Origin: Pseudomonadota bacterium
Lineage (GTDB): Bacteria; Pseudomonadota; Gammaproteobacteria; Steroidobacterales; Steroidobacteraceae
Direction: 5' to 3'
Length of the DNA: 64,000 nucleotides
NCBI GenBank assembly: GCA_018241505.1
Contig: JAFEDS010000013.1
Span: 249,417 to 313,416 of the forward strand
Under the pieces are notes generated by a model that worked only from the letters and a program-made list of their open reading frames with translations, had not been told where the DNA came from and did no database searches. This document shows positions 28,824 to 52,924 of the stretch, piece after piece. Made by a program: the position numbers and the translations under genes. How positions within the stretch are numbered: the stretch's first letter is position 1; every line of letters begins with the position of its first letter.

Positions 28824-30284
28824 TCAACTTGCGCGCGGTGCGCGGCGAAATCTCGCCGGCAGTTTCGCGGTGAACTGTGTCGTAAATTCCGGCAGCAACT
28901 GTGTGGCCAACATTGCGTAGGTCGCGCCTCCAATCACTACCAACGCCGCCAGCAGCCCGACCGAATTCATGTACGGCGCGAGTATCCACAGCGCAGCGAA
29001 TGTGACTACACCCGTTATGCATGCGGCCAACAGTGCCGGTAGCTGCGCTGTGAATACCCTTTTGGGTTCGATGCTGCAGTAACGGCGCGCGAAGACCACG
29101 GGAAACACGGAAGTGACCAACGGGCGAGTAGCGATTGCCGCCGTCGCCGCATACAGGCCCAGCGGCGCGAAAATCAAACTGACCAGCGTCAATGTCACCG
29201 TTTGCGCCGTTGCGTTGATTGCAATCGATGATTGCCGGTTGGCACCCAACAGCGCGGCGCTGAGCGCGTAGTGGGTGACCTGCGGCATGATTCCAAGAAT
29301 CATGAGCTGCGCGGGCAATACTCCGCCGGCCCACCGTGCGTTGAGCCACGCACTGAAAAGTACGGGCATCACGACGGCCCCACCGATGCAGAGTGGGAAG
29401 GTCAAGGCGCTCATCTGCATCAGAATGCGCCGCATCGCTTCGTTGATGCCGTCATGTTTGTCCCTGAACTCGCGCATTTCGATGCGGGCTACACCGAAAC
29501 GGGGCGAAACGGCGAGTTGCAGGACGATATCGGCCAGGCGCCCGGCAAGGCTGAACAGGCCGAGCTCGCTCGCGCCGAGGAAAAAGCCCAGGATGTAACG
29601 CGGTATTTGATCGGCCGCCCACGCCATCACCTGCGAAAGTGCCATGGGGCCGCCGTAACGGCGCAGTTCCTGGAAATGGGGCGCTGAGAAGCCCAGGCGG
29701 AACGGCATTTTCACCAGCCGCCACAGGATTGCGACATTCAACACGCGCTGCAGAGTGGCCTGCCATACGAGCGCCCACACGCCAAAGTGAAGGAAAGTGA
29801 GTACCAGCCCAACAATGCCGGCCAGCGTCGTGCTGATCAGCATGCGGGTCACCAGCGGCTCCATGTTCAATTCCCGCCGGCACGCCGCATTGGGGGCCGA
29901 TGTGAGCACGGTCAGCATCGGCAGCGGGGACATGAACCGCAGGATCGACGTCAGGTCCGGCTCATGGAAGTTGGCTGCTATCAGCGGTGCGAACGCGAAA
30001 ATGAGCGCACCGATGATCAACCCCGACACGACGTTGACCGTCGTCATCGTGGCGTAGTAACTCTCATTGATGTTGGATACGGAGACGAGGGCGTCGGTGG
30101 CCGGAATCTCCAGCACGTACTCGCAGAACGCAATAAACACCATCACCAGCGCAATGAGCCCGAAGGCATGCGGGCCCAGCAGCGGCGCCTGGATGGCAAA
30201 CAGCAGGATCGCAAACCCCTGTTTGAACAGATTCTGCGCCGTGAGCCAGGAGGTAGGTGACAGTTTCCTCAGGCGGCCGAACAT
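28824..30284 (-). CDS. Lipopolysaccharide/O-unit flippase (Wzx-like, MOP superfamily)
   Basis: 486-aa membrane protein with about 12-14 TM helices, starting TAQNLFKQGFAILLFAIQAPLLGPHAFG and YVLEIPATDALV, which matches the Polysacc_synt/WzxC-type entry. It differs clearly from the flippase at 21.3 kb. It begins 2 nt after the methyltransferase stop and is the last gene of the NRPS-PKS operon, which makes it the operon's only transport candidate. This points to export of a polyprenyl- or lipid-linked product rather than a free diffusible peptide; that is inference from operon structure. Confidence 0.8.
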   Translation of the reverse strand: MFGRLRKLSPTSWLTAQNLFKQGFAILLFAIQAPLLGPHAFGLIALVMVFIAFCEYVLEIPATDALVSVSNINESYYATMTTVNVVSGLIIGALIFAFAPLIAANFHEPDLTSILRFMSPLPMLTVLTSAPNAACRRELNMEPLVTRMLISTTLAGIVGLVLTFLHFGVWALVWQATLQRVLNVAILWRLVKMPFRLGFSAPHFQELRRYGGPMALSQVMAWAADQIPRYILGFFLGASELGLFSLAGRLADIVLQLAVSPRFGVARIEMREFRDKHDGINEAMRRILMQMSALTFPLCIGGAVVMPVLFSAWLNARWAGGVLPAQLMILGIMPQVTHYALSAALLGANRQSSIAINATAQTVTLTLVSLIFAPLGLYAATAAIATRPLVTSVFPVVFARRYCSIEPKRVFTAQLPALLAACITGVVTFAALWILAPYMNSVGLLAALVVIGGATYAMLATQLLPEFTTQFTAKLPARFRRAPRAS

Positions 30285-30286
30285 GG

Positions 30287-31141
30287 TCAGGTTTGCTCGA
30301 ACACAAAGCCCGCGAAATGCCTGATGAAGCGCTCGGGATAGAACGGTATCAGCAGGTCGAGGTCTTCAACCGCCCAGCGGTCGCGCAGCCGGTAGCCGTG
30401 CGCGGCGAAATACTGCAGAAACGTCTGCTCATTGAACAGTCTGTTGGGCGTGACCGCCGGACCGTAGTTCTGCAACGTCCAGCAATCCGGGCCCGGGGTG
30501 ATCGGCAGCTTGTTCAACAGGACATAGCGTGGCTTGCGTGCCAGGGATTCGAGCAAGCCGGGAATGGCGGCCGGCATGAATTGCAGGGCGCCCGCCGACA
30601 ACAACACATCGCAGGGCGGCGCGGCCGCCAGGGAGTCCACAAACCGCAGGGACGCGGCCTGTTCGCGGGCGGCTATTTCACTGCCCTGGCGGGCGATGGC
30701 ACTGACCTCGACCACCGTCCAGGTGGCACCGGCGGGCAGGCGGCCGAGTCGCCGATAGCCGTAGTAGGTGAGGCCGATGGAACCGCCCACATCCACCAGT
30801 GACGCATTTTCGCCGTAGAGCTGGTCCAGCCAGAAGAAGATGGGGTAGGTGGACAACCGGACCGGGTCGATCTGGTCGACCCATAGCTTGGCGGAGCTGT
30901 CGTGGTCCCAGCCGGACTTGCGGGACGCGGGAATGGCCGCCATCGCGGCCTCGTACGTGGGGTATATCCCACTGTGCAGGCCGGTGTGATCGCGCCGCGC
31001 CATGACACGGCCGGTGTAGAGAGCCGGCAGTCCCGGAATCGCCCGGGCCCAACGGCCTGTCGGCAGCCTGCCGAGGAGAATTTCCAGGGCCTTGTAGCCC
31101 AGGCGCCGTGGGTTGGAAGGGTTGACGTGCTGCTCGGTCAT
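30287..31141 (-). CDS. Methyltransferase of the TIGR04325 type
   Basis: 284-aa SAM-dependent methyltransferase. The subfamily mark is SGIYPTYEAAMAAIPASRKSG followed by WDHDSSAKLWV; the SAM site is SLVDVGGSIGLTYYGY (about 112-127) and TWTVVEVSAIARQG, and LLSAGALQFMP follows. These proteins recur in polysaccharide loci as putative O- or N-methyltransferases. Start ATG 31141 (MTEQHVNPSNP); a longer frame to 31225 has no conserved residues. It is preceded by a 119-nt gap from GT39 and abuts the flippase by 2 nt, so it belongs to the NRPS-PKS operon and could methylate the peptide part or the sugar. Confidence 0.78.
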   Translation of the reverse strand: MTEQHVNPSNPRRLGYKALEILLGRLPTGRWARAIPGLPALYTGRVMARRDHTGLHSGIYPTYEAAMAAIPASRKSGWDHDSSAKLWVDQIDPVRLSTYPIFFWLDQLYGENASLVDVGGSIGLTYYGYRRLGRLPAGATWTVVEVSAIARQGSEIAAREQAASLRFVDSLAAAPPCDVLLSAGALQFMPAAIPGLLESLARKPRYVLLNKLPITPGPDCWTLQNYGPAVTPNRLFNEQTFLQYFAAHGYRLRDRWAVEDLDLLIPFYPERFIRHFAGFVFEQT

Positions 31142-31260
31142 ATGGGCGGGCAGAATACCTGCACGCGCCCGCGCCGGTCGATGCGCGGTTCCACGATCTG
31201 AGCAGCCAGTCAATTGGCGCGGCATTGGCCGCGCGGAGCCGTGGCTCGGTTCCGCCGGAC

Positions 31261-32931
31261 CTAGCGTGGATACGGGGCAAACATCTCGAGCGGCCCCCGG
31301 CCGGCCGGGTCGATATCAACCCCGACCTGCCGCACTTCGTAGTCGCCTCGAGGAATCGGGCGTTTCAACACACCCAGTACAAAAACGGTGCGGAACTGGC
31401 CGGCGTCGGCCAGCACATCCCGCCGCGGCGGCGCCTCGATCAGACAGGCCTCGCAATGCAGATTGACCCGCATGGCGATGTTGGGGTCGAGAGAATAGGC
31501 AATCTCCAGCACCCGGGACGTGCCGCGATCGTTGCTCACGGTCTCATCTCCCACCACCAGCGGCCGCGGTGCCTGGTTGATGATGGCTGCGACATGCGGG
31601 CTGCGTTGCCAGGCTTTCGGGTACCAGGTGTCGGCACCGGCGCTGATGACACACGACAGGACGCCGAATGCAACAATCAACACATAGGTGGCTGCAAACA
31701 CGATGGCGCTGCCTCGGGCACGGCGCTCGGTCGGGAAGCTCGCGCAGAACAGGGCGGTCAGCGCGAGCTGCGTGGCCAGGAAGGCGGGCGCCAGGTAGCG
31801 CAGTTGACTGATCAGCGCACCCCCATTGATGAGGGCAATCGGCAGCGTCGGAATCACAAACAGGGCGAGTATGAAGCGTTCCGCGACCCGATCTCGCGAA
31901 GCTACGGCGAGCCGGCCGATACTGGCCAGGACGACCGCCAGTACGGCAGTACCCAACGCCATCGAGGTGAGTCGGCTGAGGCTGCCCGGCTCAACCGCTC
32001 CGAGGTCAATCATGGAGGCCTTGATGTCCCGCAGGAACGTCACGACGAGGCCGAGAGGCGTCTGCTCGTTCGCGAGCAGGACTCCCAATGCTTTGGCACC
32101 GGCGTGCGTGTTCGACAGCAGCGGCCACGGCAGGAACAACAGTGTGGCGACGGCGCTCGCGATCACGTAGGGCAGCAAGACCCGCCGCTGACGCAGACTC
32201 GGTATTGAGATGACGAGCGCGAAGTGAGCTGCCATGACAGTGGCGGACAACGGGTAGGTGTACAGACTAAGCGTACAGACCACTGCGTAGGCAACCCAAC
32301 TTCCCGTTCCCGCTGTGCGCGCCGCGCGCAGCAGCAGCACGCTTGCAGTGACGATTTCCAACGTCCACAGTGTTGTTTCGCGAGCTTCCTGGGCATAGAG
32401 CACTGCGAACGGTGAAATAGCGTAGAGCGAGGCGGCAATGAGCGCCGCTCGGCGGCTTTGAAACAACTCCAGGGCGAGCCACGCCATGGCGCCGATGGTC
32501 AGCAGCCCGAAGATGATCGGCAGAGTACGCAGTGCGGTTGGCGAGACTCCGGCCACACCGGCCCACAGACGCTGCATCAGATAGAAGACCGGCGGGTGTT
32601 GCGGATCTTCACTGGCCAGGGAGGCAACCGTTGCCCGTAACGGTCGCGGTCCGCTGTTCTGCGGTCCCGCCAGGTTGAAATACACTTGTATGTCGGCGGC
32701 AGTGCGAACCTGGGGGCCGGCCCGGACTATCTCGGCCTCCGTGTAGCCGAGGGTGTGCGTCAGGCCTACTAACTCGTCGCCCCAGAAGGTCTTCGCGCCC
32801 GGATTGTGGGTGCGAAAGAAAACGCCCGCCAGCGTGGCGAGGACTGCGACCGCAAGCACGACCGCCTGCAGCATCGACCGGGCTCTGCGCGCATCCGATG
32901 AATATTGCACGCTCGCTGACACCGTCGTCAT
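31261..32931 (-). CDS. GT39-like membrane glycosyltransferase (polyprenyl-phosphate sugar donor type)
   Basis: GT-C fold membrane protein, about 556 aa, 10-12 TM helices with a C-terminal periplasmic part (about 425-556). The first periplasmic loop has the acidic pair in TFWGDELVGLTHTLG, the catalytic region of GT39/ArnT/EmbC-like enzymes, and DPQHPPVFYLMQRLW is also typical. Such enzymes take the sugar from a polyprenyl phosphate outside the membrane. ATG 32931 is used; GTG 32976, 22 nt after the preceding stop, is an equally possible start and would add 15 residues. It lies in the NRPS-PKS operon. The DprE1/DprE2/UbiA set in this window could supply its donor (inference). Confidence 0.78.
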   Translation of the reverse strand: MTTVSASVQYSSDARRARSMLQAVVLAVAVLATLAGVFFRTHNPGAKTFWGDELVGLTHTLGYTEAEIVRAGPQVRTAADIQVYFNLAGPQNSGPRPLRATVASLASEDPQHPPVFYLMQRLWAGVAGVSPTALRTLPIIFGLLTIGAMAWLALELFQSRRAALIAASLYAISPFAVLYAQEARETTLWTLEIVTASVLLLRAARTAGTGSWVAYAVVCTLSLYTYPLSATVMAAHFALVISIPSLRQRRVLLPYVIASAVATLLFLPWPLLSNTHAGAKALGVLLANEQTPLGLVVTFLRDIKASMIDLGAVEPGSLSRLTSMALGTAVLAVVLASIGRLAVASRDRVAERFILALFVIPTLPIALINGGALISQLRYLAPAFLATQLALTALFCASFPTERRARGSAIVFAATYVLIVAFGVLSCVISAGADTWYPKAWQRSPHVAAIINQAPRPLVVGDETVSNDRGTSRVLEIAYSLDPNIAMRVNLHCEACLIEAPPRRDVLADAGQFRTVFVLGVLKRPIPRGDYEVRQVGVDIDPAGRGPLEMFAPYPR

Positions 32932-32998
32932 GGAAGGGCCATTGTTATTATTATTCGGGAATGGTGACGTCTGCACCCCCGGAAGTCAACGGCGTGTG

Positions 32999-34348
32999 TC
33001 AGTGCGGAATCGGCCAGATGCGAATGTGCGCCTCGGGAAACACAGGCCAGCCTGTGTCCAGAGGCGGTGGAGCGCCGGGCCGCCCATAGCGCGTGAAGAA
33101 TTCAATTACATATGTCCGGATTATGTCCTGGGCCCGCCGCGCATCCAGCTCACCGCCGAACGAAAAGCGTTTCAGCGGCGAGCGCAATGGCACATCGGTG
33201 AAATTCATGTGCGCCACCCCGGGCAGGGTGACCCGCATGCCGCCATTCGCCGCCTGGTTCTTGTCGAGTTGGGAATAGTCGATGCGGTCGAGCTGCGCCT
33301 CGTAGCGAGTGGGCGGGTCCGGGGAGGTCACATCGGCATCGCTGGGGAAAATCAACTGCTCGCAAATAAACAGGTAGGGTTTGCTGACACCGCTCTGCAA
33401 CGCTTGCGCGAAGTGCCGGCCGTCGAGATTGATCGCAGACCTGACGCGGGGTTCGTCGAGGGCCATTTGCGCGGCCACAGCGCCGCCGAACGAAAATCCC
33501 AGGGCACTGGCATGTTGAGTATCCAATCTACGGGCATAACGCCCCTGCGGCTGGGAGTCCAGGTTCGCGAGCGCATCGAGGGTTGCGCTACCGTCCCGGG
33601 CATGCGAGCGCGCTCGTTGGTCATCGAGCGCCACTGACTGCCGCACTGCAGTATCGGAGGAGTGGTCCACCAGGGGGCGGTCGATACCGTTCCAGGTAAT
33701 CGAGGCGACGGCAAAACCGCGGCTCACCAGCTCCAGGATCAGATTGATGTTCTGGGTCTTGTCTTCCGGCCAGCCGTCAAAGTACACGATGACAGGGAAC
33801 TTCGGACCCTGTTGCGCGGGCGGCTCATCGGTGCCGGCAGGCGCTGTTGCCGTGGCCCGCAAGCCACTGGCAACCCGCGTCTGCAGGGAGGCCCGGAAGC
33901 GGTGCCAGTAGTTGGAATGTTGTGTTGGATACCACAGTTGCACGCGCGGCTGTGCTTGCAGCTCCGCGGGCTCGCTCGCGGAGTGCGTGACGGTCACCGG
34001 GATGGCGCTCGTTCCAACGCCGAATGGCCCGTCGGGAGTGCGAGGCGCGACGAAAGGGAATACCAGGCATGCGGCAATGGAGGCGCCGAGCAGACTGAAG
34101 CTGACGGCCGCCGAGCACAGCAGTGCAAACGCGCTCTGACTCAGAAAAGCCGGCGTCAGTGTCACGATGAAGGCAGCCGCATAGGTTGGCAGGATCTGCC
34201 AGCGCCATCCCTCGAGCAACAGTTGTGCAAACAGCGCCAGCGCCAGCACGACCTGCATGCCGTGTGCCCAACCGCCCGCGCGGCCGCCGGCCAGGCGGAT
34301 ACTGAATGCTGCGCATGCCAGCAACAACAGCAGTTCGAATGTACGCAT
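32999..34348 (-). CDS. Membrane-anchored PAF-acetylhydrolase-like alpha/beta hydrolase
   Basis: 449-aa protein with about four N-terminal TM helices (1-100) followed by an alpha/beta-hydrolase domain. The nucleophile elbow is ALGFSFGGAVA (GxSxG), NLDGRHF supplies the acid and LPGVAHMNFTD the His; this order with an LDG after the Ser is typical of platelet-activating-factor acetylhydrolases. It would cleave or transfer short acyl or amide bonds at the outer face of the inner membrane. It begins 15 nt after the terminal NRPS stop, so it is an operon member and might release or re-esterify the NRPS-PKS product. No proof of substrate. Confidence 0.75.
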   Translation of the reverse strand: MRTFELLLLLACAAFSIRLAGGRAGGWAHGMQVVLALALFAQLLLEGWRWQILPTYAAAFIVTLTPAFLSQSAFALLCSAAVSFSLLGASIAACLVFPFVAPRTPDGPFGVGTSAIPVTVTHSASEPAELQAQPRVQLWYPTQHSNYWHRFRASLQTRVASGLRATATAPAGTDEPPAQQGPKFPVIVYFDGWPEDKTQNINLILELVSRGFAVASITWNGIDRPLVDHSSDTAVRQSVALDDQRARSHARDGSATLDALANLDSQPQGRYARRLDTQHASALGFSFGGAVAAQMALDEPRVRSAINLDGRHFAQALQSGVSKPYLFICEQLIFPSDADVTSPDPPTRYEAQLDRIDYSQLDKNQAANGGMRVTLPGVAHMNFTDVPLRSPLKRFSFGGELDARRAQDIIRTYVIEFFTRYGRPGAPPPLDTGWPVFPEAHIRIWPIPH

Positions 34349-34363
34349 CCGCGGCGGTGCGTG

Positions 34364-37300: not shown

Positions 37301-38074
37301 GGAGGCAATCGCGCCGTTGGTAGTGGGGACCGCCGGGCGCGCTCGATCGGCGATGACTTCAAACGGGGCGACGCCGGCAAGTTGCCGCGTCCAGTAGGTA
37401 TTCTCGGCCGCAATGCCACGCTGTTTCAGCCATTCGAGCTGCCACTGCGCATAGTCGCCGTATTGAATGGCCAACGGCTCGTGATCGGAGGCCACATCGA
37501 GGGCCAACGCCCGGTAAATATGGCCCATCTCGCGTGCCATGACACCGATCGACCAGCCGTCTGAGACGATCTGGTGCGAGGTTACGAGGATGATGGCCTT
37601 CTGCGCCGAGTAGCGCAGAAGGACTACGCGCAGCAGGGGGCCACTGCCCAGATCGAATGGTGCGCGAGCCTCAATGAGACCGATGCGGTCGCCTTCCTCG
37701 GCTGCCTCGGTTTCCGGAAGCGAGGTCAGGTCGATCACTCCGAGGCTGAACGAGCTGCCGGGGGAGACGCGCTGTATCGGCTTGCCGTCTACCTCGAGAA
37801 ACCGGGTGCGCAGTACTTCGTGGCGGGCGATCACTTCACGCCAGGCGCGTTCCAGGATCTGCGCGTCAATGTGGCCCAGGAGTTGCCAGCGGACCGCGAC
37901 ATTGTAGGAAGGATTGCCAGGCTCCAGGCGATCCAGCAGCCAGAAGCGCTCCTGCGCGACCGAGCATGGAAAATCCGAGTACTGCGCAGCCTCGCCCGTC
38001 CCCGCTCCGGAATCCGGCACGGGCGCGCTCACCGTCTCCGGCGGCTCAAAAAGCAGGTTGCTCGCCGTGGCCAT
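34364..38074 (-). CDS. Terminal NRPS: C (degenerate) - A (degenerate, truncated) - T - thioesterase (Cys type)
   Basis: 1236 aa. Condensation domain about 33-470: the HHxxxDG motif reads HQIVSDG (167-173), so the second, catalytic His is Gln. Adenylation-like region about 490-855: SSGTTKAAVELSHH replaces core A3, SYVETGG replaces NxYGPTE, FRTGDHARLRADG resembles A7, but the A8-A10 subdomain with the catalytic Lys is absent. Carrier domain about 880-950 is intact (FFEMGGHSLL, Ser914). Thioesterase about 970-1230 has GWCVAG with Cys1041 in place of Ser, Asp1068 (FLIDSW) and His1209 (VDGNHF). So it probably cannot load its own amino acid and acts as a late transfer/release module. It starts 7 nt after the big NRPS-PKS stop. 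Product and acceptor unknown. Confidence 0.88.
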   Translation of the reverse strand: MATASNLLFEPPETVSAPVPDSGAGTGEAAQYSDFPCSVAQERFWLLDRLEPGNPSYNVAVRWQLLGHIDAQILERAWREVIARHEVLRTRFLEVDGKPIQRVSPGSSFSLGVIDLTSLPETEAAEEGDRIGLIEARAPFDLGSGPLLRVVLLRYSAQKAIILVTSHQIVSDGWSIGVMAREMGHIYRALALDVASDHEPLAIQYGDYAQWQLEWLKQRGIAAENTYWTRQLAGVAPFEVIADRARPAVPTTNGAIASVVLPRDLTNRLQELTAETGVTMFAAAVSTLSAVLARYTGKSEIVIGTQVSDRDQVELEPMIGQFVNSLILRNRLEGDPRFTQLLERTSTTIAEALEHKNIPIEKLLGMVKAGRGGSNSPAVSINFIFQRTFIEDQDYGEFRLVDMPSLPAGAIYDLNFFMIERPAGWRFSCQYNTDQFEGATVNRLLSYIQATMASVVASPSRRLSELRLADPAELTPLLPRLQGPARTFPDTLTDLFIEHARNTGDATAVSFADQRLTYAQLDAEAARFARLLMEKGVAPGSRVGVRLPRSLDLAIAILGIWKAGATWVALDGVESDLADAKFVITTPEAGAAALAAATVITSVAGSPRDSGAPLPRVSVQSAAAVWFSSGTTKAAVELSHHAIVGSLTCVHEKIGGTRADVYLSAGPVSAPAIATELLMPLAFGARALFATAHQAATANDLRHLLKHSRVTTLFASFPRATELLAALAADVTIPKIIGDQKTLNARLRSHCKELWALHSYVETGGAVSARRVEGAYDLRLAGEPFANTRFHVLDETLRPPPLGGRGELYVAGNLGAVDESAPASEGLFTYATGDERTFRTGDHARLRADGTVELIDVHPAPEVESTDVATTAADSAPTDPETENRIRAIWADLLGADPATIEPASNFFEMGGHSLLAARMLTRVQAEFGRRITLTSLFRSPTVRGLARLVLTESREFDFRQMVRLQAEGSNLPLIAINNTGVYYLLAKRLGPQQPVTSLQLFDPAAKHDSLPETLEQIAAEYVKLIRRVHPEGPYLLAGWCVAGALAFEIARQLAAGGHAVGNVFLIDSWVPRYFTRLPWLRRVFGNYSLRWQLARADWRQFRAGHQTLQQFMDQRPSLGKLRRWLAPLWGAVSDAPVSEVAGAPEQYDRWLLEFLKSTTERYEPGTYPGRVTLLRSKGEPTGWFFDPLAGWGSFVKGGIELAMVDGNHFTMFQDPGATQMAERMGPMLAAAKRPS

Positions 38075-38081
38075 CCGTCCG

Positions 38082-41000
38082 TCATCGCTTCATGGGGGTT
38101 GCCGCGGCCCGATTGCGCTTGAACTGCCCCAGGGAGGGTAGGTTCGCACGGCTGTCCGCTGCCGTTCCCGCGCCAATGGTCGAGCCATCCAGGGAAGCAG
38201 CGACTGCCCGTACATTCCGGTACTGCAAAAGCTGCTTGGCACTCAATCGGAACCCCTCCCTGCTGGAGCGCGCAATAATTTGGAATAGTTGGATTGAATC
38301 CGCGCCCAGCTTCAGTATATCCATGGTTACGCTCACACGGGACAGATGCAAGACGTCGGCCCAGATTTTCGCCAGCCGGATCTCGGTTTGGGACTGGGGG
38401 GCGACGAATTCCGCCTCGGTCACCGCCAGGGGCTCCGGTTTTGGCAGCGCCCCACGGTCCAATTTGCCGTTCGGCGAGACCGGCAGGCGCTCCAGGCGCA
38501 GCCACGCCGTCGGAATCATGTACTCCGGCAGATCATCGGCCAGCAGCGCCTGGAGCTGCTCGGTCGTATGGCTCGAGCCGCTGGGTTCGACATAGTAGGC
38601 CACCAGCCGCTGCACGCCGGGGTTGTCTTCCCGGAGAATGACCGCGACCGCCTGGAGTGCGGCTTTACGCAGCAACAGTGTTTCGATTTCCCCGGTCTCG
38701 ATCCGGAATCCACGCAGCTTCACCTGGTGGTCCATGCGACCCAGAACCTGCAGCTCGCCATTCGGCAGCCACCTGGCCAGGTCACCGGTGCGGTACATGC
38801 GTCCTGACGCGAACGGATTGCGGACAAACTTCTCCGCGGTGAGCTCAGCACGATTGTGATAGCCGCGAGCAACGCCATCGCCACCGATGTGCAACTGCCC
38901 CGATACTCCGTGAGGAACCGGCTGGTCGCCGCGGTCCAGAACGAGGAACTGCGTGTTGGCAATCGGCTTTCCGACGGTTATGGGTGCATCTCCCGGGGTG
39001 ACCGGGGTGCAGGACGACCAGATTGTTGTCTCAGTCGGACCGTACATGTTCCAAAGCTCACCCGAGCCTGCCAGCAGGCGATTGGCGACTTCACGGGGCA
39101 GCGCTTCGCCGCCGCACAGCATCTTGAAACCGGCTTTGGCGCGGAAACCCGCCTCGAGAAGCATGCGCCACGTGGCCGGCGTCGCCTGCATCACGGTTGC
39201 GCCACAACGCTCCAGGTGTTGCAGGAGTACAAACCCATCAATCACTTCGTCGCTTTCCGCGATAATCACCTGCCCGCCGACGCTCAGCGGCAGGAAGAGC
39301 TCCAGGCCCGCAATGTCGAAGGAAATGGTTGTTACGGCCAGCAGCACGTCATCTTTGGTAAGGCCGGGCACCTGAGTCATGGAGGTCAGGAAGTTGACAA
39401 CAGCAGAGTGTGGAACCTCCACACCCTTGGGCACTCCCGTCGACCCTGACGTATAGATTGCATACGCGAGATCGTTCGGCTGAACTTTGACCGCCGGCAA
39501 TGCGGGTGTGGTCGCGGCGATACTCGCGATTTCCTTGCGAATATTGATTGTTGGTACCGCCGAGTTCGGCAGCTCTATATCGATCGTGCCGTCGGTAATC
39601 ACCGCGGCTACTCCGGCATCCTTCAGGATGTGCCGCAAGCGTTGCGCAGGATGTGTCGGGTCGAGCGGCACGTAGGCGCAGCCGGCTTTCAACGTGGCCA
39701 GCAGTGCAACCAACATGTCGAGAGATCGGTCGACGATCACCGCGACGAGCGACTGCGGCGCGCCGTCCTTGCGAACCCCGCCCATGCGGCGCAGCAGGAC
39801 GTTGGCGAGCTGATTGGCCCGCCGGTTGAGCGACTCGTACGTCATGCTGTCGTCGCGGAATTTCGCGGCAATGGCCTGCGGCCGCTCGGCTGCCTGCTTT
39901 TCAAACAACTGGTGGACGCAAACCGGCGGGAACGCCGCCGCGGTACGGTTGTAGTCGGCAAGTACGCGCTGCTTTTCGGCAGCCGGCAGATAGTTCACCT
40001 GCGACACCGGGGTGCTCGCATCAGATGCAATCGACTCGAGCAGTGCCTCGTAGCAGTCGAGCCACAGGTCGACGGTGCCGGCATCGAACAGGTCGGTGTT
40101 GTAGTCGCAGTCCAGCCGCAGCCCGCTCTCGGATTCAATCACATTCAGGAACAGGTCGAAGTTGACGGCGGCCTTGCTGTTGGGCGTGACGTCGATAGCG
40201 AGCCCCGGCAGCCGGATCTGGTCCGCCAGGCGCTCCAGGTTGAATTGAATTTCCGCGAGCGGTACGCGGTTCGCTTCGCGAGTGAGCTTCAGCTTGCGTA
40301 CGAGGGTGCCCAACGTGTAGCTCTGGTGCTCGTAGGCGTCGAGGACACTCTTTGAAACAGCACGCAAATGCTCGCCGATGGCGGTGGTTCCGCTCCAGGC
40401 GCCACGGATGGGAAGGAAGTTGACACAGTGGCCCACGAGGATCCGGTCTTCCAGCAGCGACTGACCGGCGGTCGGAACACCCACCACGACTTCAGTCTGA
40501 TCGCACAGCCGCCCGACCAGCGCCTGGAACGCGCCGAGCAGTGTCACAAACAAGGTGTTGCCCGCTTTCGCGCCCCCTTTCTTGAGCGACTGATAGAGGC
40601 TCACATCAATGCGGCGGCAGCGGCTCGAGCCTGCGTAGGACTTCAATGCCGGCCGCGGGCGGTCCGTGGGCAGATCCAGCGTCCGGGTGGGCTCGCGATA
40701 TTGGTTGAGCCAGTAGCTTTCGGTTTTCGCTGCTTCCTCGGGGTCGCGATTGTGCTGGTCGCGAGCGTAGGTACTGAAGCGCAGGGCAGGGGCCAGCTCG
40801 GGCGTGCCGCCGTTGCTCAATACCGGATAGATTTCAGCGAGCTCACTCACCACGACGTTGATTGACCAGCCGTCAATGATGATGTGGTGGCCGGTGAACA
40901 TCAGTATGTGGTGATCGGGCGCGAGGCGCAGCAACTGGAAGCGCGCGGCCGGGCCGTTCACCAGGTCGAACGGCGTACGAGCGTCGTCGGCAATGAGTTG

Positions 41001-44000
41001 CTCAGCGGCGCCTTTCGCGTCCTGTTTGTTGGTGAGATCGATGACCGGCAGGTCCACCGGCTTTGCCGCGCTGATGCGCATCTCTTCACCGGTATCGGTA
41101 AAGGTGGCACGCAGAGCGTCGTGTCGCTCCAACAGCAGTGTCAGCGACGCACGCAGCGCCTCCTCGTTGAGCGTGCCGCGCAGTGTCAGGCTGACTGATT
41201 CATTGAAGGCGCAGGAGGCTTCGTCGCCCATCTGTGCCGCGAGCCAGATTTCGGTTTGGCTTTCGGTGAGGGGGATACCGGAGTCGGCGCCGCCATTGTT
41301 TGCCGCCGCGTCGTTGGCGCTGGCCGTGACCGCACCGTATGCGCTTGCGGCGATGCCGGTTACGTTGGATGAGCCTCCCGTCGGCAGGCTACCAGCGGCT
41401 GCAGCGCCCGCGCCACCGCCGGCCGTGCCGCCACTCGCACCGCGGCCCGGCGGCGTGCCCAGAATGCCTACGGCATTCAACTCGGCCACGCTCTCGGCGA
41501 ACGCGCTATAGATCTGCTGGAAGTCGGCTTCGGAATGGCTCGTCGTCAGGAAGCAGGGGAAGCCGTCCTGAATGTGAATCCCGCGCAGTCGCAGATGATA
41601 GAACAACAACGAGGCGTTCGGGTGCTCGCCATGGATGTTGAAGAAGAACCAGCTTGCGTAGGTTTCCACCTTCGTCTTCAGGCCGTACTTCTGGAACAAC
41701 TTGTTGAGGTCGGCGGCCAGCTCCGAGGTGCGCTTCTGCAGCTTCTGCTGCATTTGCGGCCCCTGCGTCTTGATGTGATTCAACACGGCCCAGGCGGAGG
41801 CGAGTACCAGGGGGTGCCGGACGAACGTGCCGGCGAAGAAGGTTACTCCCACTTCCGGGAAGGAGTCGTCACCGAATCGCCACGTGCCGCCGTCCAACGC
41901 ATCCATGAACTTGCGATTGCCGGCAAGAACGCCGATTGGCAATCCACCGCCAACCACCTTGCCGTAGGTGGCCATGTCGGCGCGTACGCCGGCCAGAGCC
42001 TGGATTCCGCCCGGATGAGTACGGAAGCCCGTCACCACCTCGTCCATGACGAACGCGGTGCCGGCGGCCTCGGTGATCTTGCGAATTTCACGCAGGAATT
42101 CGAACGGTTGCAGGCTCGGGTGACGGCTCTGCACCGGCTCTACGATGACTGCTGCCAGGTCTTCAATGTTATCCCGGACCCACTTCAATGTTTCCGGAGT
42201 TGCGTAGTCCAGAACGATCATGTTCTGCACCGCGGAAGCAGGGATGCCCGGTGCTACCGGCATCGAGCGCGGCTCTGCGCCAACACGCTGCACGCCCTTT
42301 ACCAACACCTCATCAAACTGACCGTGGTAGTCGCCGTTGAATATGACGATCTTTTCGCGGCCCGTAACCGTACGGGCGAGGCGCATCGCGGCCATCACGG
42401 CTTCAGAGCCGGTATTGCAGAAGGTCATCCGATCGTTGCCGGTGATCTCGCAGAACAGCGCTGCAACCTTACCCGCGAGCTCTGCTTGGGGACCAATGGC
42501 GAAGCCCTTATCCAACTGCTCTTTCACAGCCTCAATGACGAAGTCAGGCGAGTGACCGAAGGCGGTCTGACCGAAGCCGTTGACCAGGTCAACGTACTCA
42601 TTGCCGTCCAAGTCCCACAGCTTGGAGCCTTTGCAGCGATCGGTAACGATCGGGTATACCAGCTCCTTCCATTCAGTCCGGAAGCCGGATGCTGCGCGCG
42701 GGTCGGCCAACACCGAACGATGTTGCTCAGTGTATTGCTTCGACGCTGCTGTCTTGCGCGTGTAGCGAGAGGTCAGGTCATGGACGTGCGCCTGTTGTTC
42801 GGGCGACAGCGCCTTGCTGGAGGAGGGTTCTTTCGGGTTGAACACTGCGAAGCGTGAGGGACGCGCTTCCTCGGCTGGTGCGGCGGCGGCGGTCGGCGCG
42901 GTCGGCGCCGCGCCAGCGTCAGCGCCAGGCGTCACGCCGGCACTAACGGCAGCACCAGCGGGTACTGCGGCGGCGGGCGCGTAGGCCGCGCCGGCAACCG
43001 CGGGGTTGATAACGGCTGCAGGGTTGACCGTACCAGCGGGCGCGGCCCCCGGCGTGAGTCCAAGTCCCTGCAGCACGTCAAACTGACGACTGATGAGTTG
43101 CGACATCGTGTGGAGCTGGTCGCGGAACAGCCCTTCGAGGCCGCCGACGGTGCCAGTCAGCGGCGCGACGCCCGTTGTCACGGCGCCCTGCGGCGCGGAG
43201 GCCCACTGGGCGCCTGCGGCCGGCGCGACGCCAGCAAATCCAACAGGCGCGGGCTGACCAGCAAACCCAGCGGCGGGCATCAGCGCGCCAGCGGGCGCGG
43301 ACAGCGTCGCTGGCCCAGCGGCCATCGCTACAGCCGCCATCGGTGCGGCGGGTGCAGCAGGGGCAGCGGCCGCGGCGGGCGTTCGGGCAGGCAACACACT
43401 GGCCGGTACCTTCTCAGCCAGGAATGCGGCGAGTGCCGGAATAGTCGAGTATTGCGCCAGCAATTGCCGGAAGGTGATTTTCACCTTCATCTGGCTTTGA
43501 ATCTTCTGCGCCACTTGTGTCAGGAACAGCGAGTCGTACCCCATTTCCAGGAAGCTGATGGGCGCCGTCGTGGAGGGCGGCGCACTGCCCGACAGGTTTT
43601 CAAGAATGGCCGCAATGGCGGCACTCAGTTCGGCAATCCGGTCGCCGGCGGTGGGTGTGTTTGATTGAGTCATCGCAGTAGTGTCCTGAGAAACAACGGG
43701 GGCCGGTGCAACAATGGCAACCGGCACGGCAGAAACGGGTAAGGGTGAACCGGTCGCGGCAACAACTGGCGTCCCGGCGGCACCGCCGGCTGCGGTACCG
43801 GCGCTGGGGTCGCCACCGCGCACCTTCGGCGGCGCCTCGATCCAAAATCGCTTGCGTTCAAACGGATAAGTCGGCAACGGCACGCGCCGCGGCGGCTGCG
43901 CATGCAACGCACTCCAGTTCGGCTCGACCCCGTGGGTCCACAGCCGCCCGAGCGCTTCCAACATGCAGGCCCGATCGGACGATTCCCTGGCTGAGTCCTG

Positions 44001-47000
44001 GAGCGAAGTGACAACCGGGTTGGTGGCACCCTGCAACGCCTGGAAGGCGAGCGTGGACAACACATTGCCCGGGCCGACTTCCAACAGGATCGGCGCGGAC
44101 TCCATGGACAGCATCGTCTTGATGCCATCAGCGAAACGAACTGTTTCGCGTGCATGTCGCGCCCAGTATTGACTCGACGTGGCTTCCGCCTCCTTGATCC
44201 ACGTCCCCGTAACGCACGAGACGTAGGGCAGTGTCGGCGACGACAGCCGCATCTGCTTGAGGCGCTCCCGCAGCGGCTCGACGATGGGTTCGACCATCGC
44301 CGAATGAAATGCGTGGGACGTATGCAGGTGCCGGCAGATGACACCGCGTTCTTGCAGGGTCTTCTCGAGCGCTTGGATGGCCGCGTCAGGTCCCGAAGCA
44401 ACGGTCAGCGACGGTCCGTTGACAGCCGCAATCGAAACATCGTCAGCCAACAATTGCCGCAAGTCCCGCTCCGGCAACCGCACGGACAACATCGAGCCGC
44501 GATGCAACTCCTGCATCAGCCGGCCACGCAGCGCTACGAGCGGCAGTGCATCCTCGAGCGACATCACCCCGGCCATGACCGCGGCAACAAACTCACCCAC
44601 ACTGTGGCCAATCATGGCGGCAGGCTGAATACCCCAACTCATCCAGAGCTTGGCGAGCGAGTATTCAATGGCGAAGATCGCCGGCTGGGCGAACTTCGTA
44701 TTCATCAACTGCTTCGCGGCTTCCGGCGAATTGACCGCCGGGTAGACGATCGCCGCGAGATCCTCACCGAGGGTCGAGCGGCAAATCTCGGCGCAGCGAT
44801 CAAAGTGCGCGCGGAACTCGGGCTCGCCGACGTACAGGTCGCGAGCCATGTCGGGATATTGCGATCCCTGGCCGGGGAACATGAACGCGATGGGCCGGCC
44901 CCGGTTCGGGCGTGCCGATGAGGTCGAACCACCAACGGACTCGGACAACGCGGTGGCAGGCGGCCGTGCGGTAGGCGCTGATGCAGACTCCAATTTGGAA
45001 GCCGCATCGTCAGGCGTATGTGCGACCACAAACGAGCGAAAATCAAATGTCCGCCGCCCGACCTGAAGCGAGTGCGCTACGTCGGCCAACGACACTTGCG
45101 GATTGGCGCGCAGGTAGCCGGCGAGGTTGCTACGCGCCGCGGCGACGGCCGATTCGCTGCGAGCCGACACTACCAACAGCTCGGACGCCTGGGGCGCAAC
45201 CTCGGATCCCCCCATAGCGGGGCGGTTCGCGGCAGCCGGCGCCTCCTCGAGTACCACGTGCACATTGGTGCCGCCCAAACCAAATGCGCTGACACCCGCT
45301 CGTCTCGGTCCAGTTGTCCGCGGCCACTCGGTCAACGAGGAATTCACAAAGAAGGGCGTCGACGCAAAATCGATCTGCGGGTTGGGCGTCGTGTAGTGCA
45401 ACGAAGGCGGAAGCACGCCGTGGTCCAGCGACAGGGCGGTCTTGATCAGACCGACGACACCGGCACCCACATCCAGGTGCCCGATGTTGGGCTTCACCGA
45501 GCCCAGGGCGCAGAACTGCTTGTCGCTCGTCGTCGCCTGGAATGCCTTGGTGAGGGCGGCGACCTCAATTGGATCGCCCAAGGGTGTCGCGGTCCCGTGG
45601 CATTCAACATAGCTGATGGAGCGGGCATCGACTCCGGCGTTGGCATGAGCCATCTCAATGGCTGCCGCCTGGCCGTCGATGCTGGGGGCGGTGAATCCAA
45701 CTTTGGTCGCGCCATCGTTGTTGACGCCGCAACCGCGAATGACCGCATAGATATGGTCACCGTCGCGCTGCGCGTCAGACAATCGCTTGAGGGCGACGAC
45801 GCCGGCGCCACTACCAAAGATGGTGCCCGTTGCGTTGGCATCGAACGTTCGACAGGTGCCGTCCGCCGAAACCATGCCGCCTTCGAGATGGAGGTAGCCG
45901 CGCTTCTGCGGAAACGTGATCGACACGCCGCCGGCCAGGGCCAGGTCGGATTGACCGGAGGTCAGACTCTGGCACGCCTGCGCCACGGCCAGCAGGGAGG
46001 TGGAGCAGGCACTGGAAACGGTGACCGCCGGGCCCTTCAGATCCAACTTGTAGGCAACGCGAGTCGCCAGGAAGTCCGAGCCGTTACCCAGCAGCATGGG
46101 ATAACAACCCACCTGGTAGCTGCTGGTGAATTCCTCGATGGTGCGGCGGTCGCGCAGCACATGCTCGAGGAAGTAGGTGCCGATACTGGCTCCCGCGAAA
46201 ACACCGATCGGGCCCGCAAACTGGCGAGGGTCGCAACCCGCGCTCTCCAGGGCCTCCCAGGCGCACTCGAGGAATACGCGGTGCTGCGGATCGGTCAGCT
46301 CGGCCTCGCGCGCATACATGCCGAAGAAGTCGGCATCAAACTGGTCCACTGCATCGAGAATCGGCCGGGCCTTCACGAAGTTGGGTTGCCGCCTGACCTC
46401 ATCGGAGAAGCTGTCTTCCAGCTCAGCCTCGCTGAAGCGGGTGATGGATTCAACACCGTTTCGCAGGTTGTGCCAGAACTGGCAGAGCGTGCCCGCGCCC
46501 GGGAATCGGCCGGACATGCCAACAATGGCGATCAAACCGTCGCCACCGCGCGAAACCGCTGCGCGAGCCGGCGTGCGCGCGGGCGCGGTTCGAGTCATGC
46601 GTTCCGCAAGTGCGCTGATGCGCGGATACTGGAACATTTCGACAACTGTGATGTCGCTGGTCATTGAACGTTTGATCTGGGCGTGAACCTCGATCAGGTT
46701 CAGCGACGTGCCACCGAGATCAAAGAAGTTGTCGTCGACGCCGACCGACTGGCTGCCCAGGACCTTGCGCCAGATTTCGCGCAAGGCCGCTTCGATTCCA
46801 TTGACGGGCGCACGCCCGCGAATGTCAGCAGCGGGTGCCGCGGTCACAACGGGCAACTGGGCGCGATCCACCTTGCCGGTCGGCGACAGCGGGAAGCTCT
46901 CCAACTGGGTGAGGGACGACGGAATCATGTGCTCGGGAAGATCCTCGCGCAGCACGCGGCGCAGCTTCTCGATGTCGACCGTGCCGGCGCCCGAAGCCGC

Positions 47001-48347
47001 AATCACAAACCCGATGATCTGGCGATGGCCCACGGCCCCCGGCGGGCACACCACTGCCGCATCCTTGACCAGTCCGGTCGCGCGAATGCGGGCTTCGATT
47101 TCATCGAGCTCGACGCGCTTACCATTGATTTTGACCTGGCGATCCTGACGGCCGAGAAACTCGATATTGCCGTCGGCGCGCATCCGCACCCGATCCCCGG
47201 TCTTGTAAACCAACGCCCCCGAGGGCAGGCGAATGAACCGTTCGGTCGTCAACTCGGGGCGCTTGAGATAACCCAGGGCAACTCCCGCGCCGCCCACGTA
47301 CAACTCACCCTCGGAGCCTATGGCGACCGCCTGCAGCGACTCATCGAGAATCAGCGCATCCGTCTGCCGGATCGGCTTGCCGATAGGAAGCGCGGACGAG
47401 CCGTCGTAATCGCGTGGCACCGTGTAACAACAACTGAATGTTGTGTTTTCAGTTGGTCCATAACCGTTGATCAGGCGGCAGTGGGGCAGGGCGCGCAGCG
47501 CCTTCACAATGTGAGGCGGCGAGAGCACATCGCCCCCGGCCAGCAATTGACGCAGTGGTTTCAGACCGTCGAGGTTGTTGTCCACCATCAAGTGGAACAA
47601 ACCTGCGGTGAGCCACATTGTCGTCACGCCGTGACGTGCAATCTCTGCCGCAACGTCATCGAGCGAAGGATATGGATTGGAGACGACGGCCAGCTTGCCG
47701 CCGTTCAACAGCGCCGCCCAGATTTCAAACGTCGACGCATCGAATGACAGTGGCGCCATCTGCAGGACAACTTCGTCCGGGCCGACCGTTGCAAAGTCAT
47801 TGTCAACGACCAGTCGAAGGATGGCCCGGTGGGGGACAACCACGCCTTTGGGACGTCCTGTGGAGCCCGACGTGTACATGATGTACGCAACGTCTTCCGG
47901 CTCAATCTCAGGCCAATCCCAAAGACCGCCTGCATCCGGCAACTCCATGTCGGCATCGAGGCTCAGAGCCTCACCCTTCCAGAACACGTCCGTCGGACGG
48001 GTGGCGACCAAGCTGTCCTGCACCAACATTGCCGACGGCAGGCTGTCTTCGTAAATGTATTGCAGGAGCTTACGGGGATAGGCCGGGTCGAGCGGCACGT
48101 ATGCCGCGCCAGCCTTGAGGATTCCAAGGATGGCCGCGATGGTGTCTACGGAGCGCTGTGCGAACAGTCCAACGGTGTGACCGCGGCCGATACCCCGCGC
48201 GCGCAGCCAGGCGCCGATGCGATCGGCTTTGGCGGCGAGCTGGCCATAAGTGAGCTGCACGGCATCGCCCGCGATGGCAGCGCGATCGCGGTAACGCATC
48301 GCCGTCCGGTCGAATGCCTCGGGTATCGATGCCAGAGATATTTTCAT
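38082..48347 (-). CDS. Hybrid NRPS-PKS megasynthase A-T-KS-AT-T-AMT-C-A-T
   Basis: 3421 aa. Domains by residue: A1 about 10-500 (YTSGSTGRPKG, NGYGPTE); T1 512-585 (LGGTSL, Ser548); KS 603-1030 (Cys781, His917, His957 all present); AT 1150-1450 (GHSVG Ser1249; HAFH 1345-1348, the malonyl-type motif); T2 1560-1645 (MGYDSL, Ser1606); Ala/Pro linker 1650-1830; PLP aminotransferase 1880-2295 (TYGKVVGGG, Lys2130); C 2357-2790 (HHIIIDG, intact); A2 2810-3300 (YTSGSTGVPKG, NMYGPTE); T3 3315-3385 (LGADS, Ser3351). No KR, DH or MT. My hand-read specificity codes are near DAFWLGGTFK (Val-like) for A1 and DILQLGMIWK (Gly-like) for A2. Predicted logic: Val, malonate extension, beta-ketone to beta-amine, then Gly. 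It heads an operon and is divergent from the PPTase. Confidence 0.92.
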   Translation of the reverse strand: MKISLASIPEAFDRTAMRYRDRAAIAGDAVQLTYGQLAAKADRIGAWLRARGIGRGHTVGLFAQRSVDTIAAILGILKAGAAYVPLDPAYPRKLLQYIYEDSLPSAMLVQDSLVATRPTDVFWKGEALSLDADMELPDAGGLWDWPEIEPEDVAYIMYTSGSTGRPKGVVVPHRAILRLVVDNDFATVGPDEVVLQMAPLSFDASTFEIWAALLNGGKLAVVSNPYPSLDDVAAEIARHGVTTMWLTAGLFHLMVDNNLDGLKPLRQLLAGGDVLSPPHIVKALRALPHCRLINGYGPTENTTFSCCYTVPRDYDGSSALPIGKPIRQTDALILDESLQAVAIGSEGELYVGGAGVALGYLKRPELTTERFIRLPSGALVYKTGDRVRMRADGNIEFLGRQDRQVKINGKRVELDEIEARIRATGLVKDAAVVCPPGAVGHRQIIGFVIAASGAGTVDIEKLRRVLREDLPEHMIPSSLTQLESFPLSPTGKVDRAQLPVVTAAPAADIRGRAPVNGIEAALREIWRKVLGSQSVGVDDNFFDLGGTSLNLIEVHAQIKRSMTSDITVVEMFQYPRISALAERMTRTAPARTPARAAVSRGGDGLIAIVGMSGRFPGAGTLCQFWHNLRNGVESITRFSEAELEDSFSDEVRRQPNFVKARPILDAVDQFDADFFGMYAREAELTDPQHRVFLECAWEALESAGCDPRQFAGPIGVFAGASIGTYFLEHVLRDRRTIEEFTSSYQVGCYPMLLGNGSDFLATRVAYKLDLKGPAVTVSSACSTSLLAVAQACQSLTSGQSDLALAGGVSITFPQKRGYLHLEGGMVSADGTCRTFDANATGTIFGSGAGVVALKRLSDAQRDGDHIYAVIRGCGVNNDGATKVGFTAPSIDGQAAAIEMAHANAGVDARSISYVECHGTATPLGDPIEVAALTKAFQATTSDKQFCALGSVKPNIGHLDVGAGVVGLIKTALSLDHGVLPPSLHYTTPNPQIDFASTPFFVNSSLTEWPRTTGPRRAGVSAFGLGGTNVHVVLEEAPAAANRPAMGGSEVAPQASELLVVSARSESAVAAARSNLAGYLRANPQVSLADVAHSLQVGRRTFDFRSFVVAHTPDDAASKLESASAPTARPPATALSESVGGSTSSARPNRGRPIAFMFPGQGSQYPDMARDLYVGEPEFRAHFDRCAEICRSTLGEDLAAIVYPAVNSPEAAKQLMNTKFAQPAIFAIEYSLAKLWMSWGIQPAAMIGHSVGEFVAAVMAGVMSLEDALPLVALRGRLMQELHRGSMLSVRLPERDLRQLLADDVSIAAVNGPSLTVASGPDAAIQALEKTLQERGVICRHLHTSHAFHSAMVEPIVEPLRERLKQMRLSSPTLPYVSCVTGTWIKEAEATSSQYWARHARETVRFADGIKTMLSMESAPILLEVGPGNVLSTLAFQALQGATNPVVTSLQDSARESSDRACMLEALGRLWTHGVEPNWSALHAQPPRRVPLPTYPFERKRFWIEAPPKVRGGDPSAGTAAGGAAGTPVVAATGSPLPVSAVPVAIVAPAPVVSQDTTAMTQSNTPTAGDRIAELSAAIAAILENLSGSAPPSTTAPISFLEMGYDSLFLTQVAQKIQSQMKVKITFRQLLAQYSTIPALAAFLAEKVPASVLPARTPAAAAAPAAPAAPMAAVAMAAGPATLSAPAGALMPAAGFAGQPAPVGFAGVAPAAGAQWASAPQGAVTTGVAPLTGTVGGLEGLFRDQLHTMSQLISRQFDVLQGLGLTPGAAPAGTVNPAAVINPAVAGAAYAPAAAVPAGAAVSAGVTPGADAGAAPTAPTAAAAPAEEARPSRFAVFNPKEPSSSKALSPEQQAHVHDLTSRYTRKTAASKQYTEQHRSVLADPRAASGFRTEWKELVYPIVTDRCKGSKLWDLDGNEYVDLVNGFGQTAFGHSPDFVIEAVKEQLDKGFAIGPQAELAGKVAALFCEITGNDRMTFCNTGSEAVMAAMRLARTVTGREKIVIFNGDYHGQFDEVLVKGVQRVGAEPRSMPVAPGIPASAVQNMIVLDYATPETLKWVRDNIEDLAAVIVEPVQSRHPSLQPFEFLREIRKITEAAGTAFVMDEVVTGFRTHPGGIQALAGVRADMATYGKVVGGGLPIGVLAGNRKFMDALDGGTWRFGDDSFPEVGVTFFAGTFVRHPLVLASAWAVLNHIKTQGPQMQQKLQKRTSELAADLNKLFQKYGLKTKVETYASWFFFNIHGEHPNASLLFYHLRLRGIHIQDGFPCFLTTSHSEADFQQIYSAFAESVAELNAVGILGTPPGRGASGGTAGGGAGAAAAGSLPTGGSSNVTGIAASAYGAVTASANDAAANNGGADSGIPLTESQTEIWLAAQMGDEASCAFNESVSLTLRGTLNEEALRASLTLLLERHDALRATFTDTGEEMRISAAKPVDLPVIDLTNKQDAKGAAEQLIADDARTPFDLVNGPAARFQLLRLAPDHHILMFTGHHIIIDGWSINVVVSELAEIYPVLSNGGTPELAPALRFSTYARDQHNRDPEEAAKTESYWLNQYREPTRTLDLPTDRPRPALKSYAGSSRCRRIDVSLYQSLKKGGAKAGNTLFVTLLGAFQALVGRLCDQTEVVVGVPTAGQSLLEDRILVGHCVNFLPIRGAWSGTTAIGEHLRAVSKSVLDAYEHQSYTLGTLVRKLKLTREANRVPLAEIQFNLERLADQIRLPGLAIDVTPNSKAAVNFDLFLNVIESESGLRLDCDYNTDLFDAGTVDLWLDCYEALLESIASDASTPVSQVNYLPAAEKQRVLADYNRTAAAFPPVCVHQLFEKQAAERPQAIAAKFRDDSMTYESLNRRANQLANVLLRRMGGVRKDGAPQSLVAVIVDRSLDMLVALLATLKAGCAYVPLDPTHPAQRLRHILKDAGVAAVITDGTIDIELPNSAVPTINIRKEIASIAATTPALPAVKVQPNDLAYAIYTSGSTGVPKGVEVPHSAVVNFLTSMTQVPGLTKDDVLLAVTTISFDIAGLELFLPLSVGGQVIIAESDEVIDGFVLLQHLERCGATVMQATPATWRMLLEAGFRAKAGFKMLCGGEALPREVANRLLAGSGELWNMYGPTETTIWSSCTPVTPGDAPITVGKPIANTQFLVLDRGDQPVPHGVSGQLHIGGDGVARGYHNRAELTAEKFVRNPFASGRMYRTGDLARWLPNGELQVLGRMDHQVKLRGFRIETGEIETLLLRKAALQAVAVILREDNPGVQRLVAYYVEPSGSSHTTEQLQALLADDLPEYMIPTAWLRLERLPVSPNGKLDRGALPKPEPLAVTEAEFVAPQSQTEIRLAKIWADVLHLSRVSVTMDILKLGADSIQLFQIIARSSREGFRLSAKQLLQYRNVRAVAASLDGSTIGAGTAADSRANLPSLGQFKRNRAAATPMKR

Positions 48348-52867: not shown

Positions 52868-52924
52868 GGATCTTCGACATGCTGCCGCTGGCCCGCGCAC
52901 GATACCTCAAAGAACGCGCTCCTT

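Follow-up and report, generated by a model that had tools for sequence, protein, structure and literature searches.

What does an NRPS-PKS assembly line do within an exopolysaccharide (EPS) locus, and where does its product go? The products of such lines are usually taken to be free secondary metabolites; the family described here points to envelope polymers. The question is raised by a 64-kb stretch of DNA (the window) from a 7.88-Mb genome (G000:C4:249417-313416), in which the initial annotation had placed six tightly spaced minus-strand genes at 28824-48347, with a divergent phosphopantetheinyl transferase (PPTase) beside them. This layout was borne out in coordinates, strand and spacing: the intergenic gaps are 7, 15, 22, 35 and 2 nt (the fourth widens to 119 nt with a methyltransferase start at the second ATG, 31141), and the Sfp-type gene is indeed on the plus strand, opposite to the mega-synthase gene. 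From the mega-synthase onwards, the genes are as follows:

38082..48347, minus strand: mega-synthase A-PCP-KS-AT-ACP-AmT-C-A-PCP, 3421 aa
34364..38074, minus strand: terminal NRPS C*-A*-PCP-TE, 1236 aa
32999..34348, minus strand: PAF-AH/PETase-like serine hydrolase (esterase)
31261..32976, minus strand: PMT_2 (GT39/ArnT-type) polytopic transferase
30287..31225 (start 31225 or 31141), minus strand: TIGR04325-family methyltransferase
28824..30284, minus strand: Wzx-type flippase (PF13440)
48433..49302 (start uncertain), plus strand: Sfp-type 4'-phosphopantetheinyl transferase, divergent from the mega-synthase

Judged by its gene content, the window locus is a Wzx/Wzy-type EPS gene cluster that carries an NRPS-PKS cassette. 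The Wzx/Wzy-dependent set is complete in the window (priming transferase, Wzx, Wzy-like protein, Wza and Wzz), and several glycosyltransferases also lie within the locus. The surrounding features are:

9..821, plus strand: Wza/EpsE-type polysaccharide export protein
818..2290, plus strand: Wzz-type chain-length determinant
6676..8202, minus strand: HAD-UbiA fusion, decaprenyl-phosphate phosphoribosyltransferase-like
17640..19043, plus strand: Wzy-like protein (Wzy_C, O-antigen ligase family)
25732..26760, minus strand: EpsG-like chain-length tyrosine kinase
26984..27877, plus strand: JmjC/cupin-like protein
27906..28820, plus strand: Cupin_8-like protein
49399..50823, plus strand: PrsR-type (TIGR02915) sigma-54 response regulator
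50820..52900, minus strand: DprE2-like and DprE1-like pair
54239..55657, plus strand: WcaJ-type undecaprenyl-phosphate glucose phosphotransferase (EPS priming enzyme)

No ABC, MFS or MATE exporter and no resistance gene was found among the window genes scanned with Pfam (part of the ORFs), in agreement with the earlier statement that a drug-type exporter and a resistance gene are missing here. The PrsR-type regulator scores 592 bits against a cut-off of 502.6. In this respect, and in the EpsE/EpsL-like proteins of the window's genome, which score below their cut-offs, the locus resembles the PEP-CTERM/EpsH EPS loci as described in the accessible part of their report (PMC1569441), yet it differs from them in carrying the NRPS-PKS cassette and in that the exosortase EpsH (PF09721) gave no match in the window's genome (assembly 93.9% complete). 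Control of the NRPS operon by sigma-54 was considered and set aside, as none of the matches listed lies in the gap upstream of the mega-synthase gene; sigma-54-like matches with at most two mismatches numbered 45 against 39.5 expected, which is not above chance. A perfect match to the pattern TGGCACN5TTGCW lies at 53895-53910 (minus strand), near the PrsR-type regulator gene and ~190 nt upstream of the gene for a lipoprotein-like He_PIG/fn3 protein (52925-53704). In addition, the UbiA-, DprE1- and DprE2-like proteins, together with the PMT_2 protein (31261-32976), resemble the mycobacterial DPA-like polyprenyl-phospho-pentose donor pathway, here in a gammaproteobacterial EPS locus; all three DPA-type homologues fall below their cut-offs (DprE1 at 349.4 against 500 bits, DprE2 at 182.2 against 250 and UbiA at 163.4 against 207).

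The first A domain (A1) of the mega-synthase was best matched, in sequence comparison, by amino-acid A domains of NRPSs. An A1 of this type implies that there is no fatty-acyl start, and a FAAL-started lipopeptide synthetase was thereby ruled out. Thus the new element, as read from this domain and its Val-like code, is an amino-acid-type starter, hence no lipopeptide line, and the 'glycolipopeptide' put forward in the initial annotation is not supported, since loading falls to an amino-acid A domain in place of a fatty-acyl ligase. The specificity codes in the window are DAFWLGGTF for A1 and DILQLGMIW for A2, which we take to be Val-like and Gly-like, respectively, on code positions assumed from GrsA. 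The AT carries the motif HAFH, a mark of malonyl-type ATs, and so do 74 of the 77 AT hits. Among PDB entries, the aminotransferase (AmT) has its nearest match in the one from mycosubtilin MycA (6kfm; 434 bits, versus 188 for the next family), a beta-amino-acid-forming enzyme, and the earlier expectation of a beta-amino acid is upheld to that extent. The simplest product of the window line is predicted to be a 3,4-diaminoacyl-glycine.

The closest known lines are those of mycosubtilin and iturin (MycA/BamA), which share with the window line the KS-AT-ACP-AmT-C-A-PCP order and a GSA-type aminotransferase. However, the window line starts with an amino-acid A domain and not with a fatty-acyl-AMP ligase, has only two A domains with usable codes, lies in an EPS locus and is followed by a terminal protein with a Cys-TE. 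The annotation shown for the bacillomycin region includes GalU and GtrA and names no flippase, Wza or Wzc.

With the aminotransferase as query, 84,980 genomes yielded 280 relatives among 448 stretches. The 81 loci examined consist of the best 80 of these 280 plus the window, with L028 replacing L033 from the same contig. The best 80 relatives belong to Gammaproteobacteria, Alphaproteobacteria and Acidobacteria, plus one Gemmatimonadetes MAG and one genome labelled Proteobacteria only. AmT is followed by a C domain in 81 of 81 loci, and KS-AT-ACP-AmT is found on a single ORF in 71 of them. All of A1, KS-AT-ACP-AmT, AmT-C and the terminal C...TE are present in 44 of the 81 loci overall and in 38 of the 50 that are at least 20 kb long; among the latter, 7 are without a starter A domain (1 of them cut by a contig end) and 5 are without a terminal TE protein in the stretch. 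In Solimonas variicoloris (L038), the terminal protein is located ~17 kb from the cassette, adjoining Wza. The AmT motif YGK is retained in 81 of 81 hits and the HH of the upstream (mega-synthase) C domain in 76 of 76. The exact A1 code of the window is found in 22 of 55 members, and among 76 A2 codes, 47 begin with DIL, 14 with DVTQ or DVAQ and 9 with DAFW or DALW. Because the A-domain codes vary across the family, the products should differ between species, with no single fixed product.

Conservation of gene order, which the initial annotation had proposed to look for, was found in the same-genus genome G005 (locus L028), where the series runs mega-synthase, NRPS, PAF-AH, a 529-aa ORF, methyltransferase, Wzx, cupin genes, UbiA and EpsG, so that the six-gene order recurs with the fourth gene excepted and is therefore not a matter of chance. 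The mega-synthase and the NRPS of G005 are, respectively, 75% and 64% identical to those of the window, and the 529-aa counterpart of the PMT_2 gene shows 24% identity and no Pfam hit. As PMT_2 occurs in 1 of the 81 loci, the window itself, GT39 was rejected as a core gene, although it had been counted in the set before. Of the 98 genomes related to that of the window, only G005 has a close homologue over the full length (66%), and G047 has a partial one; the trait is thus patchy. More NRPS genes are found elsewhere in the window's genome, at G000:C4:1828-7398 and C42:429091-432855 and on C14 and C7.

The terminal NRPS gene lies where it had been placed, but its product lacks a normal A domain: the A3 and A5 motifs and the C-terminal lid were not found in the window protein, nor in that of G005. 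Its C motif reads HQIVSDG in place of HHxxxDG, with the same loss in G005, and the protein does not match a canonical termination module with active C and A domains. The TE, in turn, has its nucleophile Cys in GWCVAG and its His present. These motifs were followed through the family in 61 proteins for the C motif, 62 for the TE and, with L038 added, 63 for the A and PCP motifs. The second His of the terminal C domain is gone in 40 of 61. The A3 and A5 motifs persist in 6 of 63 proteins, all six with HH, whereas both the A motifs and the PCP motif are missing from 21 of 63, 1 of these with HH (the motif listed there for L045 is a wrong match). The TE nucleophile is Cys in 56 and Ser in 6 of the 62, with the TE His kept in 53 of 62. 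Intact-looking terminal A domains with Gly-like codes occur in L043, L048, L053, L068 and L075. As read from these motifs, the terminal module has decayed stepwise while its Cys-TE persisted, and this combination of decayed A and C domains with a kept Cys-TE argues, by conservation, for an enzyme of off-loading or transfer. What was once an extending module seems to have been reduced to an enzyme that takes the finished chain and passes it on. The graded decay provides a natural experiment on the possible conversion of an NRPS module into an off-loading enzyme.

The tie of the NRPS-PKS genes to EPS loci, first proposed for this stretch, proved real and recurs across phyla. In 37 genomes drawn from the best 80 loci, picked for long contigs and spread and with places matched by eye, AmT lies within 30 kb of Wza (Poly_export) in 23, against 1.7 expected when every Wza is allotted 60 kb and the size of each genome is allowed for (P~1.5e-22 on the assumption of independent genomes, which holds only in part). 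Among other NRPS clusters of the same genomes, likewise matched by eye, 0 of 13 lie within 30 kb of Wza. Set aside from this control were G102:C16 and G130:C252, taken as family terminal proteins on split contigs, and G105:C34, a second NRPS in a Bradyrhizobium EPS locus; with these three ambiguous clusters counted the control gives 3 of 16, and short contigs could hide a Wza. The 14 of 37 genomes with no Wza within 30 kb of AmT include some short contigs and some with a flippase or priming transferase near instead (G103 and G134). In Solimonas soli, a C-domain protein that is probably the terminal NRPS abuts Wza on a separate contig. In Bradyrhizobium centrolobii, additional NRPS genes lie close to PF13440 flippases (G105:C34:54834-59336 and G105:C22:190273-194820), perhaps other NRPS-EPS couplings.

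Annotated plasmids were compared for 13 of 50 matching records, with incomplete gene tables. All six plasmid members nested in the family (Rhodobacter CZR27, Rhizobium SL42 and CCGE532, Loktanella, Jannaschia and Aliiroseovarius) lie in EPS loci, where the cassettes are surrounded by genes for flippases, for chain-length or export proteins and for glycosyltransferases. The Aliiroseovarius member is a variant in which A-PCP-TE ends one protein and whose AmT is on a long, openly placed branch. The near-outgroup Variovorax WDL1 has only methyltransferases and one glycosyltransferase by its cassette. No flippase was found in the opened stretches of Spirosoma, Agrobacterium, Planktothrix, Nostoc, Bacillus velezensis and Paenibacillus; with Variovorax WDL1 these make 5 outgroups and 2 near-outgroups lacking a flippase. 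With members in Alpha- and Gammaproteobacteria and in Acidobacteria, some of them on rhizobial plasmids or in Rhodobacterales, the family may account for some of the orphan clusters.

On an AmT tree of 93 rows (with L121 and AmT pieces of <300 aa left out), the EPS label changes 17 times, as compared with 31.3 in shuffles. In a Reyranella-type clade (20 rows; SH-aLRT 100), no EPS gene was seen near the cassette: in the 5 of its genomes searched genome-wide, 0 of 5 have Wza within 30 kb, and the other 15 were seen in the fetched stretch only. In R. massiliensis the nearest Wza is >300 kb from the cassette, which is accompanied by an esterase, a PPTase and a neighbouring FecR gene. A cassette standing apart from sugar genes, the arrangement that the initial annotation had held to be contrary to its reading, thus exists in part, in these 20 rows and as far as the stretches viewed show; the cassette's own exporter, the other half of that arrangement, was not identified among the few R. 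massiliensis cassette neighbours scanned. Outside this clade, an EPS gene is present in 43 of 61 loci, many of the remaining 18 being viewed in the fetched stretch only and often on short contigs. By its gene neighbourhood, the NRPS-PKS cassette is an EPS-associated module. Its repeated EPS linkage in distant bacteria suggests a peptide attached to or co-exported with polysaccharide; some bacteria may handle a small positively charged peptide in this manner, for which covalent attachment is plausible.

The accessory genes were counted by HMM over the 81 loci, window included (PPTase 41, PAF-AH 31, Wzx 21, TIGR04325 19 and cupins 13); the matches are mostly within 10 kb, many loci being cut by contig ends and the stretches short. 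These counts were used in place of a single-linkage 'Wzx cluster' of 45 loci, which was discarded as a mixture of Wzx and PPTase. The PAF-AH-like protein has four hydrophobic N-terminal stretches (predicted membrane helices) followed by an alpha/beta hydrolase. Its model (mean pLDDT 79.6, lower in the N-terminal part) is nearest to ferulic acid esterase and Lp-PLA2/PAF-AH, at a TM-score of about one half on its own length, and its Ser285 and His379 are invariant across 21 aligned sequences. Beside the Rhodobacter cassette the accessory hydrolase is of the S15/CocE type, and a GINT1_N-type protein takes that place beside the cassette of Rhizobium SL42. The linked Wzx proteins are not one clade (11 label changes on their tree, at least 6 of them forced), by which a single co-evolved flippase clade was ruled out; the EPS link therefore appears to have arisen or been rebuilt repeatedly. 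As a whole, the topology of the flippase tree speaks for repeated coupling and against a specialised flippase family. In the complete genome of L060, flippase and PPTase form one stop-free ORF (18413-20557); as evidence this fusion is weak, since L059, the nearest tree row to L060, has two overlapping ORFs.

A pathway can be proposed that would accommodate these parts. The mega-synthase would load Val and extend it with malonyl; the resulting beta-ketone would be transaminated by AmT to a 3,4-diamino acid, to which Gly would then be added. The (diaminoacyl)-Gly thioester would pass from the last PCP to the TE cysteine, and the Cys-TE would hand the diaminoacyl-Gly to an acceptor, in all likelihood one of the sugars in the lipid-linked EPS repeat, before Wzx flipping and polymerisation. 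The PAF-AH-like esterase, probably on the periplasmic side, could trim or move acyl groups. The end product would be a polycationic, peptide-substituted polysaccharide, the peptide unit of which would differ between species. That the genes form a dedicated cassette in which a Cys-TE transfers diaminoacyl-glycine to an envelope polysaccharide precursor is our leading interpretation, with a probability of roughly 0.45. The wider proposition, that a widespread line installs cationic 3,4-diaminoacyl-glycine on Wzx/Wzy polysaccharides through a terminal module remodelled into a Cys-TE transferase loading lipid-linked sugars, is advanced tentatively. If diaminoacyl-glycine installation is true, it would be the first NRPS-decorated exopolysaccharide class.

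Co-location can also arise where a diffusible metabolite is co-regulated with biofilm. The main rival to transfer onto polysaccharide is accordingly a free secreted metabolite (a signal, an antibiotic or a matrix-active compound), co-inherited and co-regulated with EPS for life on surfaces, which we regard as possible, if on balance doubtful. Release of a free product is common for TE domains, and some NRPS products are known to have roles in biofilms; both favour such a metabolite, as does the Reyranella-type clade, which keeps the cassette apart from EPS genes, with an esterase and a PPTase in R. massiliensis. Yet the scanned window genes include no drug-type exporter, the EPS linkage recurs with flippases of differing lineages, the 13 other NRPS clusters of the same genomes are without it, and terminal proteins devoid of a PCP would be odd for ordinary release. 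A metal-binding product, free or EPS-bound, with copper or iron as examples, is less probable and on the whole unlikely. On chemical grounds, metals could be chelated by the vicinal diamine and glycine amide of a 3,4-diaminoacyl-glycine, the R. massiliensis cassette has a FecR gene next to it, and the near-outgroup plasmid members of Variovorax WDL1 (L116) and Spirosoma linguale (L120) adjoin copper genes. However, copper genes are common on plasmids anyway and both of these members fall outside the main clade; moreover, no copper or iron-uptake gene is named at the six EPS-type plasmid loci (in an incomplete gene table) or was found among the window genes scanned.

The losses in the terminal protein of the window and G005, where A motifs and lid are missing and another residue stands in place of the C-domain His, could also be read as a dying or cryptic pathway without a present product. 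Such a reading is very improbable, as the ORFs are intact over at least 10 kb, the G005 parts are still 75% and 64% identical, and the upstream C-domain HH, the AmT YGK and, in 56 of 62, the TE Cys are kept; the decay is thus confined to parts of one protein. It would be similarly surprising if the product terminated or anchored the glycan as a peptide-lipid (a glycolipopeptide) and did not decorate each repeat: the flippase and a PMT_2-type transferase do share the operon, but the starter is an amino-acid A domain and a fatty-acyl ligase is missing.

No known family fully fits, beyond the plain Wzx/Wzy-type EPS locus. Mycobacterial glycopeptidolipids join an NRPS product to sugars at the cell surface, with a fatty-acyl start, MmpL export and a glycosylated peptide; the window cassette, by contrast, stands with a polysaccharide locus and a flippase. 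No description of an NRPS-PKS cassette in EPS loci was found in open-licence PMC full text. Hybrid lines with Aminotran_3 have been catalogued, such as A-CP-KS-AT-CP-PLP1 in Pedobacter and C-A-CP-KS-AT-CP-PLP1-C-HxxPF-A-CP in Salinisphaera (PMC3870968); that report, in its accessible part, classifies domains and related lines without a link to polysaccharide, the word 'exopolysaccharide' occurring 0 times in the main text. A hybrid NRPS-PKS cluster has been named in Lichenicoccus roseus KEBCLARHB70R (PMC8776678), the strain of family member L041. The accessible text of the same report presents its hybrids as undiscovered metabolites with no polysaccharide link ('polysaccharide' 0 times); it also describes type-1 PKS clusters of Acetobacteraceae that contain genes for an aminotransferase, a glycosyltransferase and capsule formation, and these capsule-linked clusters are, by their description, PKS and not an NRPS-PKS line. 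In Phaeobacter inhibens, the NRPS Inhi_3983 on a 69-kb plasmid and the polysaccharide genes Inhi_3954 to 3961 are near in number and are not linked in the accessible text (PMC4062626).

Several further genes of the EPS loci were noted. A Calx-beta protein is encoded at 15254-17140 of the window and another in the EPS locus of Solimonas variicoloris (L128:10006-12792), the latter with a cellulase domain; the window also encodes a GH9 cellulase at 9134-11050. A radical SAM/SPASM protein (59740-60906, minus strand) adjoins glycosyltransferases and an acyltransferase.
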